A stretch of 38,769 nt of DNA from Chloroflexota bacterium (GTDB taxonomy: Bacteria > Chloroflexota > Dormibacteria > Dormibacterales > Dormibacteraceae): contig VBGP01000026.1 in the NCBI GenBank assembly GCA_005880795.1, forward strand, positions 1 to 38,769, in the 5' to 3' direction. The notes under the pieces were generated by a model. That model was not told where the DNA came from. It saw nothing but the letters and a program-made list of their open reading frames with translations, and ran no database searches. The position numbers and the translations under genes are program-made. The stretch's first letter is position 1; each line of letters begins with the position of its first letter. This document shows, one piece after another, positions 18,952 through 38,543 of the stretch.

Positions 18952-19569
18952 ATGGCCAAAGCCACCGCCGTCGATCTGGTCATCTTCTCGGACTACGTTT
19001 GACCCTGGTGCTACATCGACTCGGTCCGGGTCGAGCAGCTCGAACGGGAAGGATTGGTCCACCTCACGTGGCTGCCGTTTGAGCTGCATCCCGAAGCGCC
19101 GCCCGAAGGTATATCCCGCGATGCCTACTTCGGACGTGCGCGCTCGGAGCGCATGCATTCGCACCTGCAGTCGATCGCGGATTCGGTCGGGCTGCAGATG
19201 CATTCGCGCGACGTGATCATCAACTCGCGACGCGCGCTCGGCGCGGCAGAGTTCGCGCGCGAGCGCGGCAAGTTCGATGACATGCACCACGCGCTATTCA
19301 AAGCGCACTGGGAAGGCACCGGGCGGCTCGAGGACGTCGGCGACCTCGTGCGCATCGGCGGCGGGGTTGGCCTGGACGGCGACGAGCTCAGGAGCGCGGT
19401 CGAGGAACATCGCTACGACGCGGAGATCGACGAGAACCGACGCATGGCGAGCTCGGTGGGAATCGACGCGATACCGGCCCACATCTTCGGCCGCCGCTAT
19501 CTCATTCTCGGCGCCCAGCCTTACGACGTGCTGAGGCAGGTTGTCGACCGGGTGGCGGCAGAGGAGTGA
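18952..19569 (+). CDS. Selenocysteine-containing DsbA/FrnE-family thiol oxidoreductase (in-frame UGA at 19000-19002)
   Basis: Reading through one TGA gives 205 residues, the normal length for the FrnE-like DsbA family. The active site reads FSDYV-Sec-PWCYID, where relatives have DYVCPWCYI, so Sec replaces the first Cys of CxxC (Sec17, Cys20). Family residues continue without any frame break: LTWLPFELHPEAP, the helical insert with RMHSHLQSIADSVGL, FARERGKFDDMHHALFKAHW, ASSVGIDAIPAHIFGRRYLI with the cis-Pro loop, and the C-terminal QPYDVLRQVVDRV. A SECIS-like hairpin follows the UGA. No signal peptide is seen, so it acts in the cytoplasm. ATG 18940 is an alternative start in the same frame. The stop overlaps the next gene as GTGA. 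A Cys-to-stop mutation or sequencing error is the rival reading. Confidence 0.85.
19003..19034 (+). promoter_or_regulatory. SECIS-like hairpin in the dsbA-like gene
   Basis: Directly after the UGA, TCGACTC (19016-19022) pairs with GGGTCGA (19028-19034) over seven base pairs (one G-U) with loop GGTCC. The loop begins 21 bases after the UGA. Bacterial SECIS elements have a small apical loop with G among its first two bases, and the well-known E. coli fdhF element has a GGUCU loop about 19 bases after its UGA. The match of both loop and spacing is close. It was found by hand, not by folding software. Confidence 0.7.
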
Positions 19570-20402
19570 GGATCGTCTCGCTCCTGCCGAGCGCGACCGA
19601 GTCCCTGTTTGCCCTCGGCCTGGGCGATCAGCTGGTAGCGGTCACGCATGAATGCGACTATCCCCCGGAAGCTGCATCGCTGCCGGTGGTGACGAGATCG
19701 ACGCTCGACCTCGTGGACCGGAGCGGTGAGGAAATCGACGAGCTCGTGGCGCTCGCGGCAAGGGATGGACGCTCTCTCTACGAGGTCGACACCGACGCGA
19801 TCAACCGCCTGGACCCAGACCTCGTGGTGGCGCAGGACATTTGCGACGTGTGTGCGATTCCCGCCGACCAGGTGGCCGACGAGCTCGCCGGCGTGCGTAT
19901 GATCCGGCAGCACCCACATTCGCTTGCAGATGTGCTGACCGACATCGAAGAGCTGGCGGACGCCTGCGGAGTGGAGTCGACTGGGCTTATGTCGGAGCTG
20001 CGCAGGCGGATCGAGGCCGCATCCCGACGGGCGGCCGAACTGCCTCGCGTGCGCGGCGTCTTTCTCGAGTGGTTGGATCCGCCATATCGCGCCGGACACT
20101 GGACACCGGACCTGCTGTCGCTGGCCGGCATCGATGACCCGCTCGCGAAGCGGGGCGTGCCGTCGGTGGCGCTCTCCTGGGATGACGTCAGGCAGGCAGA
20201 GCCCGCGCTGCTCGTGCTTGCGCCCTGCGGCTTTGATGAAGCTCGCGCGCAGCGGGCAGCAGACTCCCTCAAGCGCGAGATCGACGCGATTCGCGCGGCC
20301 AAGGTGGTCGTCCTGGACGGTTCCGCCTATTTCAACCGGCCTGGGCCGCGCCTTGTCGACTCGCTCGAAATCCTCGTTTCGGCTAGGACCGAAAGACCCT
20401 GA
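19566..20402 (+). CDS. BtuF-like (cobalamin/Peripla_BP_2) binding protein without signal peptide
   Basis: A 278-residue protein with the class III substrate-binding fold: RIVSLLPSATESLFALGLG at the start, HECDYPPEA, NRLDPDLVVAQDICDVCAIP, VFLEWLDPPYRAGHWTPDLL and VVVLDGSAYFNRPGPRL. These match the bacterial 'cobalamin-binding protein/ABC transporter substrate-binding' group related to BtuF. The product starts at once with the first strand (GTG 19566, GTGA overlap with the selenoprotein), so it is probably cytoplasmic, and no permease or ATPase is near. Ligand and role are unknown. The last 20 bases overlap the convergent ArsR gene. Confidence 0.82.
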   Translation: MRIVSLLPSATESLFALGLGDQLVAVTHECDYPPEAASLPVVTRSTLDLVDRSGEEIDELVALAARDGRSLYEVDTDAINRLDPDLVVAQDICDVCAIPADQVADELAGVRMIRQHPHSLADVLTDIEELADACGVESTGLMSELRRRIEAASRRAAELPRVRGVFLEWLDPPYRAGHWTPDLLSLAGIDDPLAKRGVPSVALSWDDVRQAEPALLVLAPCGFDEARAQRAADSLKREIDAIRAAKVVVLDGSAYFNRPGPRLVDSLEILVSARTERP

Positions 20403-21369
20403 CCAGAGATTCTTGCGCTTCGGAGAAAAGGCGGCGCAGCCCTTCCTCGTTTGCGCTGAGCTTTGCGCTGCGGCCCACCGTCTTCTCTTCGAGCAGCCCC
20501 GACTCGCGGAGAACCTGCACGTGAGCGCTGACGGTGGGTTGCGACAGATGGAACTGACGCGCGATCTCGGTGACCGACGCCGGCTCGCGAGCCAGGCGCA
20601 GCAGGATGGCGAGGCGCGTCGGATCCGCCAGGGCCTTGATGCTGGCCGAGATCTCCGCCGCCACCTTCCGGTAAGACGGCTCGTCGTGGCGAATTCCTTG
20701 CCCGGCGTAGACGGTGCCGTCGAGCTCGATGACGTGGATCTTGCCGCCGAACCAGCACGGCGTGAGGATGAGCCTGCCCTCCTCCGCGGCTGCGTCGGCG
20801 CTCGCATCGACCTGCGGTCGTCCAGCCCACAGGCTTTGCATCCCAAGCAGCTGCCGGTAGGCGACGCCGTCATCGAGCGCGCGCTTCCATCGTTGTGCCT
20901 CTGCGATCACGGCGGCCCTCCCTTCCTCCTCCCAGCTGCTTTCGACGGCGCTCCAGATCTGGGTCAGCAGCTCGATGTAGCGCTTGCGCATCGCGGGCTC
21001 GGTTCGAAGCCTGGTCAGACGGGCTCGCGTCACCTCGAGCTCCTCAGGGCTCTCCGAGAGCAGGGACGGAATCTCCGCGGGATCGGTCGCAACCCCATCG
21101 ATCCTGGCGAAGAAGCGGCGTAGGTCGAGGTCGAGCATCGTGCCTGAGCGGTGCGCGAGGACGATCAGCTCCGTCGAGTACCGGGTCATGTCGTCTCCCC
21201 GGAGACGGGCGAGCTCCGGTCCAAGAGTGCGGCGGATCGATTCCAGGAACGCGAAAGCGCCCTCGTGCTCGTGCGACGCCTGGGCGAAGTGCAGCACCCA
21301 CATCAGCTCGAGGGGCGCGGAGGGGGCGACCCGGATCCGGTTGTCGCGCGTCTCGTCCAGGGCTGGCAT
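20383..21369 (-). CDS. ArsR-family regulator with N-terminal DUF5937-like domain
   Basis: In this 328-residue protein the last third is a winged helix of the ArsR/SmtB type (IKALADPTRLAILLRLAREPASVTEI, then FHLSQPTVSAHVQVLRESGLL). No CxCxxC or other metal site is evident in it. The first two thirds are helical (LELMWVLHFAQASHEHE near the start, RKRYIELLTQIWSAV later), with a sheet region around CWFGGKIHVIELDG. This domain order matches actinobacterial regulators annotated with DUF5937. Target and signal are unknown. The divergent small leaderless gene and the oligopeptide importer beyond it are candidates. Confidence 0.85.
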   Translation of the reverse strand: MPALDETRDNRIRVAPSAPLELMWVLHFAQASHEHEGAFAFLESIRRTLGPELARLRGDDMTRYSTELIVLAHRSGTMLDLDLRRFFARIDGVATDPAEIPSLLSESPEELEVTRARLTRLRTEPAMRKRYIELLTQIWSAVESSWEEEGRAAVIAEAQRWKRALDDGVAYRQLLGMQSLWAGRPQVDASADAAAEEGRLILTPCWFGGKIHVIELDGTVYAGQGIRHDEPSYRKVAAEISASIKALADPTRLAILLRLAREPASVTEIARQFHLSQPTVSAHVQVLRESGLLEEKTVGRSAKLSANEEGLRRLFSEAQESLVRVFRS

Positions 21370-34602: not shown

Positions 34603-35481
34603 TCAAAATCCCATCAGGTTCGGTGTGATCTTGGTAAAGCCGCGCTCCCGAGCGTAGAGGTCGAGCGGAATCGCCGCAAGCTCGTCGACGACGGCGACCG
34701 CGCCCGGATCGGCGGCCAGGTCGATGCTGAGCAAGTAGCCGCGGCAGCTCTCACATGCCTCAATGCGGAGGTGTGGAAAGACCGCCCCCGGGTCATGTGC
34801 CGGCACGACGCGTTGAAGGCCGCGCACGACACTTCCGTGTTCGCCCGACGTGGTGCCGTGCTCGCTGAAGATGGTGAGCTTCGCGCTGCGGTCCTCTCCG
34901 CATGCCGCGCAGGTCATGCGCGCGAAACCCCAGCCGGCGCCGCACCGGGCACAGACCAGGTACCTGGGCCCGGTCGCCAGGTCCTCGGGGCCGGGGGCGA
35001 AGTAGCTGAGCTGGGGAGGGCCGCCGCAGTGGGGGCAGTGCAGCGCATCGCGCGGTCCGGCGCAGACAGCCCGAGCCTCGGCGCCAAGCGCCTCCAGGAC
35101 CGGTCCGAGGGCAGCCCGCGCGAGGAAACGGTCGACGGCCGGCTGGTCCTCACCGTCGATCCACGTCTGGACGATGGCCTGGGGATTCGTGCCTTCGAGG
35201 CGGCGGATGAGCTCGTGACGCATGGAGTCGGGCCCGGCGGCGACGCTGACGTCGATCACGCTCGGCACGACGAGCTCGGCGACATACGCGCAGAGCTTCT
35301 CGGCCGTCGGCCTCGAGGCAGCCGCGTCGTCAAAGGCCTTCTCCTGGACCCCCAGGAGCGAGCCGTAGAAGTCCAGCAGCTGGCGAGCGAAGCCGTGATG
35401 GGACCGGAGCTCACGGACCCGGCGCCGGCGCTCGGTCCAGACATCGCTCGCAGCGGCGGTGCCAGCGGCAGCGACAGACAT
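34603..35481 (-). CDS. fdhE: Formate dehydrogenase accessory protein FdhE
   Basis: The 292-residue protein has a helical N-terminal half and a rubredoxin-like C-terminal half with CPHCGG, CARCGAGW, CAACGED and CESCRGY, the zinc/iron knuckles of FdhE. FdhE is needed for maturation of respiratory formate dehydrogenases in the cytoplasm before export. It sits directly between the catalytic and FeS subunit genes (TGATG overlap with fdhA), an unusual but logical place. FdhD is not in the window. Confidence 0.92.
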   Translation of the reverse strand: MSVAAAGTAAASDVWTERRRRVRELRSHHGFARQLLDFYGSLLGVQEKAFDDAAASRPTAEKLCAYVAELVVPSVIDVSVAAGPDSMRHELIRRLEGTNPQAIVQTWIDGEDQPAVDRFLARAALGPVLEALGAEARAVCAGPRDALHCPHCGGPPQLSYFAPGPEDLATGPRYLVCARCGAGWGFARMTCAACGEDRSAKLTIFSEHGTTSGEHGSVVRGLQRVVPAHDPGAVFPHLRIEACESCRGYLLSIDLAADPGAVAVVDELAAIPLDLYARERGFTKITPNLMGF

Positions 35482-38400
35482 CAGATCTTCTCCAGGTTGA
35501 CCAGGAACGCCTTGAACTCAGGCGTCCGCGCATTCGCATCACCTACGAACGGCGTCAACGCGTTGGCCAGCCAGTACCGGCCATGACTCGGGTCGCTGTC
35601 GGCGGAGAGGCCGACGTAGCCCCAGTGAATCGGGATTCCGATCTGATAGACCTTCTGCCCGGCGACGGTCATCGGGCCGAGGCGCTTGGTCACAAGGGCA
35701 AGCACCTCCACCTTGCCTCGCTTCGAAGAAACCCGCACCTGGTCGCCGCTCTTGATGCCTTTCTCCGAAGCCAGCTCTTGAGGAATCTCGACAAACGGCT
35801 TCGGCTGCAGCTGGACCAGATGCGGCACATGCTGTGTGACGTAGTGCTCGTGCTCCGTGAGCCTGTAGCTCGTCGCGATGTATGGGAAGTCCTTGGCGGT
35901 GCCGAACCGGTCGGGACGTCCGGCGGCCTTGTCATAGAGGAACGCGACCGGGCTTGCCGAGTTGGTCGGATGCAGCGGGTTCTGTACCGGCGACTCGACG
36001 GGCTCGTAATGCTCCGGGAACGGACCGTCGACCATGCCGTTGCTGAACAGGCGGCCGACACCCTCGCCATTCATGATGAACGGCAGATACGCGTTGGGGT
36101 CATGCGGATCCATCGTCGCCGGGTAGTCGGGCACGTCGCCGACCCACTTGCTGCCGTTCCAGGTTATCCCGGGGCGCGCCGCGTCCCACGCCTTGCCGTT
36201 CAGGTCAGCCGACGCACGGTTGTACATCACGCGGCGGTTGAGCGGCCAGCTCCATGACCAGTTGGGATAGAAACCCATACCGGTCGGATCGTTCGTGTGC
36301 GGGTCTTGTATGCCCTGACGTCGCTTCATCAGGTTCCCGGTGTCTAGATAGCTGCCGGTGTAGATCCAGTCACCAGTGGTGGTGGTGCCGTCGTCTTTCA
36401 GGTTGGCGAAAGTGGTCATCTGCTTGCCAGTGCTGAGGTCCTTGCCGTTGATCTCTTTGGCGATCTCGTCCAGGTCGGGCTTCAGCGGGTCCTTGTAGTC
36501 GAAGGTCAGGCTCATGATGGGGTCGGGGAACTTGCCGCCCTGGGTCTTGTAGAGGGTCTTCACGCGCTGGAAGAGATCTGCCAGGATCCAGTGGTCGTGC
36601 CGCGCCTGGCCCTGGGGCGGCAGGACCTGGTCCTTCCATTGCGACCAGCGCCCGCTGTTGACGAACGAACCTTCCTTCTCGATCCAGTGGGTGGCCGGAA
36701 GCATGAAAACCTCGGTCTGCACCTGGCTCGCGTCGACGCCGGGCGCATGCCAGAACTCAGAGCTTGTGGTCGGAAGCGCGTCCATGATGACAAGCCATTT
36801 CAGCTTGGCCAACGCCTGCCGAACCTGGTTGCTGTCCGGGCCGATGCTGGCTGCGGTCATGCCCGACAGCATCAGCCCCTCCATCTTGCCCTTGAGGGCC
36901 TGGTCGTAGATCGTCATCCACGACGCGTTGCCGGCAGGCTTGGGGACGAAGTTGAACGCGAACTCGTTGTCCTTCTTCGCCGCGTCGCCGTACCAGGCCT
37001 TGAGCGTGCTGACCATGAACTTGCTGTAGTTAGTGCCGAAGAAGTTCCATGAGTTCTTGTCCGACTTCTTCGGAGCGCTCTGCGCGACGTAATCGGCGAT
37101 CGTCTTCTGTCCTGGTGCCGGGATCTTGAGGTAGCCCGGAAGGATCTCCCACGAGATCGCATGGTCTGTGTTGCCCTGGATGTTGGCGTGGCCACGCTCG
37201 GCATTCATCCCGCCGCCTGGGCGACCCATGTTGCCAAGCAGAAGCTGCAGCACGGCGCCCGAGCGGATGAGCTGACCGCCGGTCGTGTGGTGCGTCAGGC
37301 CGACCGCGTAGACGATGGTCATCACCTTGTCGGGCTTGCCCATCTGGCCAACCATGTCGGCGACCTTGTTGAAGTCGGCAACCGGGATCCCCGTGATGCT
37401 CGAGACCATCTCTGGCGTGTAGCGCGCGTAGTGCGCCTTCATCAGCTGGAAGACGGAGCGTGGATTCTGGAGGGTCATGTCTCGATTGGCAAAAGTCGTC
37501 GCGGGGTCGGTGTCGTAGCTCCAGGAGGCGATGTTGTAGCTCCGCGCCGAGGCGCTGTAGCCCGAGAAGAGACCGTCGGTGAACGCGTAGCCGTCCTTGA
37601 CGAGGAACGATGCGTTCGTGTAGTTGCGCACGTACTCGTCGTGGAACAGGTTGTTCTGCAGCACGTGATTGATCAGTCCGCCGAAGTACGCGACGTCACT
37701 TCCGGTCCGGATGCGCAAGTACATGTCGGCGACCGCTGACGTCCGGGTGAACCGGGGATCGGCGTGGATGATCTTGGCGCCGCGGTCGAGCTTCGCCCGC
37801 ATGAACCACTGGAAGCCGACCGGGTGCGCCTCAGCCGGGTTGGCGCCGTTGATCAGGATGAGGTCGGCGTTCTTGATGTCGCGCCAGTGGTTCGTCATGG
37901 CTCCCCTCCCGAACGTGGCGGCCAAACTGACCACCGTGGGGCCGTGTCAAACCCTGGCCTGCTGCTCTAGATGAACCAGTCCCAGGCTTCGCATCAGCTT
38001 GGTGGCGAAGTAGCCCTCCTCCGAGCTGAACGCCGCGCCTCCCGCGAAGGCGATGCCTTCGGTGCGGTTGACCGTGTTGCCGTTGCCGTCCGTGGTTACG
38101 AAGGTGGCGTCGCGAGACGACTTCACGTTCTGAGCGATCTTGTCGAGCACGAAGTCCCATGAAACGCTCTTCCACCCGGTCGCACCGGGGGCCCTGTACT
38201 GCGGCGACTCGACCCGCCGCGGGGAAACCGCCAGCTGCATCGCCGTCGCGCCCTTGGGGCAGAGGCGGCCCTCGTTGACCGGGCTGTCAGGGTCGCCTTC
38301 GATCTGCAGCAGCTGGACTGAGCCGTCACTTTTCTGCCGCGTGTAGGCGACCAAGGAGCAGCCGACCGCGCAGTACGGACAGACCGAGTGGAGCTCCTTC

Positions 38401-38543
38401 GCACCGGCGATCCTCAGCTGTTGCTTCACCTTGGTCGACTCGGCCAAAGCGACGTCGAAACCCAGGCCCGCCGCAGCAAGCGCACTAGCGCCTGCGGCGC
38501 CAACCTTCAGAAAGTCCCGACGTGTGACTGTCGGCAAACTCAT
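35481..38543 (-). CDS. fdhA: Selenocysteine formate dehydrogenase catalytic subunit (in-frame UGA at 37949-37947)
   Basis: The 1020-residue protein, read through one UGA (residue 199), is like E. coli FdnG (about 1015, Sec196). It has a Tat signal TRRDFLKVGAAGASALAA, an N-terminal [4Fe-4S] site (Cys55, Cys58, Cys62, Cys95), and the Sec context QQARV-Sec-HGPTVVSLAATFGRGAM. Molybdopterin-binding segments follow, such as LILINGANPAEAHPVGFQW, NMGRPGGGMNAERGHANIQG and the C-terminal KSGDQVRVSSKRGKVEVLA. It oxidises formate to CO2 at a Mo or W bis-pterin centre outside the membrane. Downstream genes follow with overlaps. The two open pieces must not be taken as a broken gene. Confidence 0.96.
37917..37946 (-). 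promoter_or_regulatory. SECIS-like hairpin in fdhA
   Basis: After the UGA, GGTGGTC (37935-37929) pairs with GGCCGCC (37923-37917) over seven base pairs (two G-U) around loop AGTTT. The loop begins 19 bases after the UGA, as in E. coli fdhF, and has G at its second position as required for SelB recognition. It was found by hand. Confidence 0.7.

Follow-up and report, generated by a model that had tools for sequence, protein, structure and literature searches.

DsbA-like proteins that carry selenocysteine (Sec) in a UxxC motif have been in print since 2005, when nine such sequences were described from the Sargasso Sea (PMC1088965). The GOS data yielded 63 'DsbA 1' sequences (PMC2398784), the DsbA row of a further survey table gives the figures 41 and 45, taken here as organisms and sequences (PMC5029168), and an inventory of 2026 lists a 'DsbA-like protein form 1' with the reference NIP15863.1 (PMC13188914). 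The accessible parts of these surveys name marine metagenomes and other organisms and show no Chloroflexota-wide distribution, and three selenoproteins were counted for the Chloroflexi in PMC1794560. According to figure legends in two of the studies, bacterial SECIS elements conserve a guanosine in their apical loop (PMC1088965, PMC1794560).

The closest structural relatives of the protein analyzed here are found in FrnE from Deinococcus radiodurans (drFrnE; DR_0659; PDB 5cnw, 5cp1). As set out in excerpts of PMC8945050, a cytoplasmic location is predicted for FrnE proteins, and drFrnE has been proposed to act as a disulfide reductase whose C-terminal pair helps to regenerate the active site, the C-terminal CX4C motif being present in many, though not all, members. 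A further point of reference is BtuF, a selenoprotein with a CxxU motif that appears on the lists of two reviews in their accessible parts (PMC9312934, PMC13188914).

We have analyzed a 38,769-nucleotide stretch of Chloroflexota DNA, referred to as the window. It is one contig (C134) of an assembly of 3.22 Mb in 217 contigs that is 95.5% complete, and its closest named relatives are metagenome bins labeled 'Chloroflexi bacterium' with depth labels such as 40cm, which we take to be of soil origin. With the DsbA-like selenoproteins of the surveys, as far as their accessible parts describe them (PF01323 or COG2761, UxxC), the gene at 18952-19569 shares the PF01323 domain and a predicted Sec where CxxC has its first cysteine, and it adds a strongly supported member to a group that, as the original prediction rightly remarked, surveys had already predicted (PMC1088965, PMC2398784). 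A possible novelty lies in the spread of the Sec-type protein through the Chloroflexota, as a Chloroflexota-wide Sec-type DsbA is not reported among the open-licence papers listed, which in the largest listing were 15 of 3,327.

Reading frame, catalytic codon and fold

The gene comprises 205 codons followed by a terminal TGA at 19567-19569, and its read-through product is MAKATAVDLVIFSDYV-U-PWCYIDS..., with a sole internal TGA at codon 17 (Table 1). This codon coincides with the first cysteine of the CPWC motif in a DsbA-family frame, so that the redox motif of the read-through protein appears as UPWC. The PF01323 (DSBA) match spans residues 9-197 at 1.4e-28, with 100.4 bits against a cut-off of 25.6. 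Cys or Sec codons occur at positions 17 and 20 only; position 206 of the translation P0001 corresponds to read-through of the terminal stop. The ordinary open reading frame in the same frame starts at TTG 19054 and encodes 171 amino acids, and therefore lacks both U17 and C20. The intact frame around a TGA at the catalytic cysteine, and the loss of the active site in standard gene calling, are thus found as originally predicted. This loss is demonstrated for the window gene, and since ordinary ORF finding misses an active site at a TGA, annotation likely hides a widespread redox protein of the Chloroflexota. By eye, neither a signal peptide is visible in MAKATAVDLVIFSDYV nor a lipoprotein signal in the protein, and the product is probably cytoplasmic.

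Table 1. Features of the window discussed in the text
Feature	Position	Strand	Evidence
Sec-type DsbA-family (FrnE-like) oxidoreductase gene, predicted	18952..19569	+	read-through translation, PF01323, orthologues
In-frame TGA, codon 17, predicted to be read as selenocysteine; first residue of UPWC	19000..19002	+	189 loci
TGC codon, Cys20, presumed resolving cysteine	19009..19011	+	sequence, homologous copies
SECIS-like stem-loop within the coding sequence	19016..19034	+	pairing, covariation, folding energy, synonymous constraint
BtuF-like (Peripla_BP_2) protein, CDVC motif, Cys-type	19566..20402	+	ORF, domain match, loci comparison
Formate dehydrogenase alpha subunit, Sec-type	35481..38543	-	in-frame TGA 37949-37947, own stem-loop

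Across 189 homologous loci the codon aligned with position 17 is TGA in 93 cases and TGC or TGT in 96, and any other codon, including the unrelated stops that the original prediction had named as evidence against it, is absent. The 93 TGA loci represent 93 different Chloroflexota genomes; the number of distinct sequences is 186 (93 TGA, 93 TGC/TGT), as the Cys loci include three pairs of identical sequence. Repeats of contigs with G handles (L047-L053) were excluded from this count, and five loci that do not align over codon 17 stand outside it (L040 and its repeat L054, both from G012, and L172, L184 and L186). Sampling is uneven, since one of the six search patterns contained the Cys codons and the best 80 of 118 loci were kept, so that the proportions are no estimates. 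At position 20, TGC or TGT is present in every copy in which this codon is read out. Among the relatives searched, 62 of 101 genomes had a match at 1e-3 or better, while in a sample of the phylum 100 of 400 genomes had one at 1e-20; the match contained a TGA in 67 of these 100, in all 67 at position 17. TGA carriers include seven single-contig assemblies (G104, G166, G194, G199, G331, G394 and G407).

Codon comparison shows the part of the gene downstream of the TGA to be under purifying selection: from codon +13 to codon +183, seven pairs gave dN/dS ratios of 0.10-0.18. The 11 codons upstream yield a wide spread of ratios (0.05 to 0.64, with one undefined). In a 35-row alignment the residues Y15, V16, C17, P18, C20 and Y21 around U17/C20 are invariant, and the invariant residues also include P175, taken to be the cis-proline. 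An orthologue in G012 (L040, 1490-1510) retains the TGA but lacks one base just after it, either an error or a real frameshift.

An AlphaFold2 model (mean pLDDT 93.9, pTM 0.90) displays a DsbA-like thioredoxin fold, and its best matches in the PDB are the drFrnE entries with query TM scores of 0.88-0.90. In both proteins a motif of the CP(W/F)C type lies close to the N-terminus, but drFrnE has a cysteine at the catalytic position where the window protein has a predicted Sec, and the C-terminal CX4C of drFrnE is missing from the window protein. The window protein matches the drFrnE sequence at 7.8e-20; for comparison, 3e-61 is reached by a Cys-type FrnE that belongs to the same class. Judged by sequence similarity, the window protein is thus no close FrnE and lies outside the tight FrnE group, and the FrnE likeness originally proposed applies to the fold but not to close kinship or to the CX4C motif. 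A weak similarity in the C-terminal half links the protein to the Rcas_1661 family thioredoxin-like (seleno)lipoprotein NF041057, which is DsbG-like; at 40.8 bits, far under the curated cut-off of 190, membership in this family was rejected.

The stem-loop downstream of the TGA

In the window the TGA is followed by 13 nucleotides and then by TCGACTC-GGTCC-GGGTCGA, a stem of 7 bp (19016-19022 with 19028-19034) with the loop GGTCC (19023-19027). A SECIS-like element directly downstream is a feature that the gene has in common with the DsbA-like protein in a figure legend of PMC1088965. In an ungapped alignment of 77 of the 93 TGA copies (72 of them distinct) 95.4% of the cells in the stem (columns 17-23/29-35) are paired. 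Both sides have changed in 44 cells, versus 5.9 in shuffles. The covariation score of 0.321, compared with 0.166 in shuffled alignments, was reached in 0 of 500 shuffles, and sliding the stem by 1-3 columns makes the signal collapse. Counted by pairs instead of cells, those with changes on both sides (3) are no better than shuffles (2.0; 92 of 500). Note that the covariation count leans towards structure because 16 copies were dropped post hoc, after inspection (L176, L181, L182, L298, L300, L325, L327, L328, L331, L333, L335, L336, L337, L339, L340 and L344); 15 of them have a stem that is weak, absent or shifted to another register, and the remaining one, the short fragment L182, fits. The loop guanosine in column 25 is present in all 77 aligned copies and in 81 of 93 overall, and a U follows it in only 50 of 93.

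In 43 copies from families f1 and f3 (L160, L174, L182 and the distant L173, L175, L176 and L181 being dropped) the ratio of observed to expected synonymous entropy was 0.59 for codons +1 to +3 (2 scorable) and 0.51 for codons +4 to +12 (8 scorable), rising to 0.91-0.97 beyond codon +13; upstream of the TGA, where six codons could be scored, the ratio is likewise reduced (0.69). Folding energies in 91 copies (L174 and L182 dropped) gave a mean z of -1.77 against synonymous resampling, with p<0.05 in 42 of 91, while at six downstream control offsets the mean z ranged from -0.16 to 0.22 and 1-5 of 91 copies were at p<0.05. The window's own copy has a z of -1.83 (p 0.08), and an Rfam scan of the window produced no match. 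Taken as comparative evidence, these data support a conserved, covarying SECIS-like element after the TGA, and the DsbA-like family offers a large natural set of such elements with covariation.

Decoding machinery and alternative readings

The genome to which the window belongs has a tRNA-Sec (69.7 bits, gathering threshold 47; anticodon TCA, i.e. UCA); ARAGORN found nothing in the window itself. An ORF that overlaps the tRNA-Sec gene (L009, 1481-2224, G000:C199) contains a run of X, corresponding to N in the DNA. The selD gene scores over its cut-off and has an in-frame TGA inside (HGAGUACK; L281, G000:C170:16920-17822), so that its product is a predicted selenoprotein too. In the window, two minus-strand ORFs, 35481-37934 and 37947-38543, flank the TGA of the formate dehydrogenase gene fdhA, and after this TGA comes a stem-loop (loop AGTTT) comparable to that of the DsbA gene. 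The formate dehydrogenase is thus a second, conventional selenoprotein gene, as had been noted from the window alone.

SelA and SelB were not found by model search in the same assembly. The best match to the SelB model, a frame of 398 amino acids, reached 198 bits against a cut-off of 242 and is read, by its length, as EF-Tu, while the SelA match had 22 bits. Of the sel genes named in the original prediction, selC and selD are present in the genome; selA and selB were found in congeners, with SelA over the cut-off in 13 of 16 and SelB in 12 of 16. SelB is absent from the congeners G002, G008, G015 and G012, which are 63-86% complete (the DsbA copy of G012 being broken), and from G291 (86% complete). 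Within the phylum sample 65 of 67 TGA carriers have SelB over the cut-off, the exceptions being the window's own genome (G000) and G291; with ten additional TGA carriers this becomes 72 of 77 (missing from G000, G002, G008, G015 and G291), where 77 of the 93 TGA carriers were tested and G012 was left out for its broken copy. SelB is also common among Cys-type carriers (27 of 31), and its presence therefore discriminates poorly; as a discriminating test it was set aside as weak (65/67 vs 27/31, Fisher p 0.078; G021 and G207, whose matches do not cover codon 17, not included).

In the sister genome G016, selA-selB lie on a 6.8-kb contig, with neighbors read from their translations as arsA, a site-2-protease-like gene and metF. 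Compared with the window's assembly, this contig has no orthologue-like match outside its last 400 bases among the 40 of 200 first-look candidates that were scored. The matches consist of 68-77% identity to the last 400 bases and one match of 36 bases, and the selB region has two matches, both to the EF-Tu place. As the neighbors of selA-selB are missing too, we infer a gap in the bin or assembly. In G008, selA reaches a contig end, and together with the short contig of G016 this indicates that assemblies break at the selA-selB place.

We consider the decoding of UGA codon 17 as selenocysteine, directed by the stem-loop, to be the correct reading with a probability of roughly 0.92. The placement of Sec at the attacking position, as originally proposed, is supported by the exclusive alternation of TGA and Cys codons, the stem-loop, tRNA-Sec, selD and the second selenoprotein gene. 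An error in sequencing or assembly, with TGA standing for TGC or TGT, is conceivable for a single position in a bin of 217 contigs, but this codon is TGA in 92 further genomes as well, several of them single-contig, which in effect excludes this explanation, itself listed in the original prediction as a possible refutation. It is also very improbable that the locus is a pseudogene, or that its real product starts at TTG 19054 without an active site and the UGA simply stops translation. Standard ORF finding does yield 19054-19569, and G012 has a one-base deletion just after the TGA; set against this are the invariant residues around U17/C20, the low dN/dS after the TGA, the absence of TAA, TAG or any further codon at position 17 in 189 loci, and a nucleotide constraint that precedes 19054 and would be needless for a truncated product.

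That SelA and SelB were not found in the assembly speaks for two other readings. In the first, a suppressor tRNA or a changed genetic code would have UGA read as Cys or Trp. Yet UGA serves as a normal stop in the rest of the window, terminating 21 of the 37 ORFs regarded as genes, the DsbA TGA has a specific stem-loop after it, most of the congeners (13 and 12 of 16) possess SelA and SelB, and the only UCA tRNA seen, in a scan short of the full tRNA set of the genome, is tRNA-Sec; we regard this reading as quite unlikely. Somewhat less far-fetched, though still improbable, is a loss of SelA and SelB in this strain, where the gene would be a relic terminating at the UGA and a selenoprotein in its relatives only. 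That neither was found in a bin called 95.5% complete speaks for such a loss. Against it stand the intact tRNA-Sec, selD, fdhA and SECIS-like element of the same genome, the missing neighbors of selA-selB (with 40 of 200 first-look candidates scored) and the breaks at this place in G016 and G008.

In the selenoprotein reading, SelB and tRNA-Sec would insert Sec at UGA codon 17, with the stem-loop 13 nt further on predicted to direct the decoding. U17 would then be the attacking nucleophile, its lower pKa favoring attack, and C20 the resolving residue, with formation of a selenenylsulfide. By analogy with drFrnE, as described in the accessible part of PMC8945050, the protein may be a cytosolic disulfide reductase that is recycled by thioredoxin or a low-molecular thiol; as U17 and C20 are the only such residues, an outside thiol would be needed for recycling.

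Sec/Cys exchange and the BtuF-like neighbor

On a quick tree of 182 proteins, 90 of them with Sec, the catalytic position must have switched between Sec and Cys 14 times or more, and 8 of these changes are forced by well-supported branches. The window's clade consists of 51 rows, all Sec, with a support of 93. Note that this tree was obtained with a short method that gave long-branch warnings, and that the short sequences L174, L182, L185 and G114 as well as three repeats were left out. Two loci, L176 and L181 (from G039 and G040), have a TGA at the catalytic position within the Cys-type FrnE clade, and this looks like a separate gain. No clear stem-loop is present in them at the usual place after the TGA; a hairpin is located further downstream than in the main family (L176, 274-318; L181, 276-320). 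One genome, G367 (loci L319 and L357), has the DsbA-like gene in two copies, one with Sec and one with Cys. With at least 8 forced changes and a genome that has both forms, the family is usable as a test of the advantage that Sec confers in a disulfide oxidoreductase.

The BtuF-like gene downstream starts at 19566 and overlaps the stop of the DsbA gene. The operon setting remarked upon in the original prediction is thus real in the window, but the two genes adjoin in only 12 of 32 family-f1 carrier genomes (including G012 and G021 with broken or partial copies), and the neighbor is of the Cys type in the copies checked. In eleven genomes the DsbA gene precedes the BtuF-like gene and in G019 the order is reversed; the existence of two orders would fit selection for linkage. 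No BtuF-like match at 1e-15 was obtained in 11 of the 32 carrier genomes. A class-wide conserved operon was not supported, as other neighbors appear once one leaves the genus and a few genera, and the ORF calls in these more distant genomes are noisy. The neighbor was also considered as a selenoprotein and, for the copies checked, discarded: its motif codons are TGC or TGT in 16 loci, and the TGAs seen in G004, G020, G021, G022, G023 and G033 are terminal stops.

The Sec-type cobalamin-binding BtuF on the review lists (cd01144), as far as the accessible parts go, has CxxU where the BtuF-like window neighbor has CxxC (CDVC), a correspondence that is assumed. In view of this CxxU protein the pairing of DsbA and BtuF-like genes is suggestive, no more. 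A scenario in which Sec-type DsbA is old in the Chloroflexota, has been kept as Sec over a large part of the history of the phylum, and was recruited in the window's lineage as a dedicated reductase of the BtuF-like CxxC appears unlikely to us; if true, the two proteins would form a redox unit that depends on selenium and centers on the handling of cobalamin or metals. On the opposite strand, the end of the BtuF-like gene is overlapped convergently by a gene at 20383-21369 that encodes a protein of 328 amino acids with a C-terminal ArsR-type helix-turn-helix domain (PF12840, PF01022).
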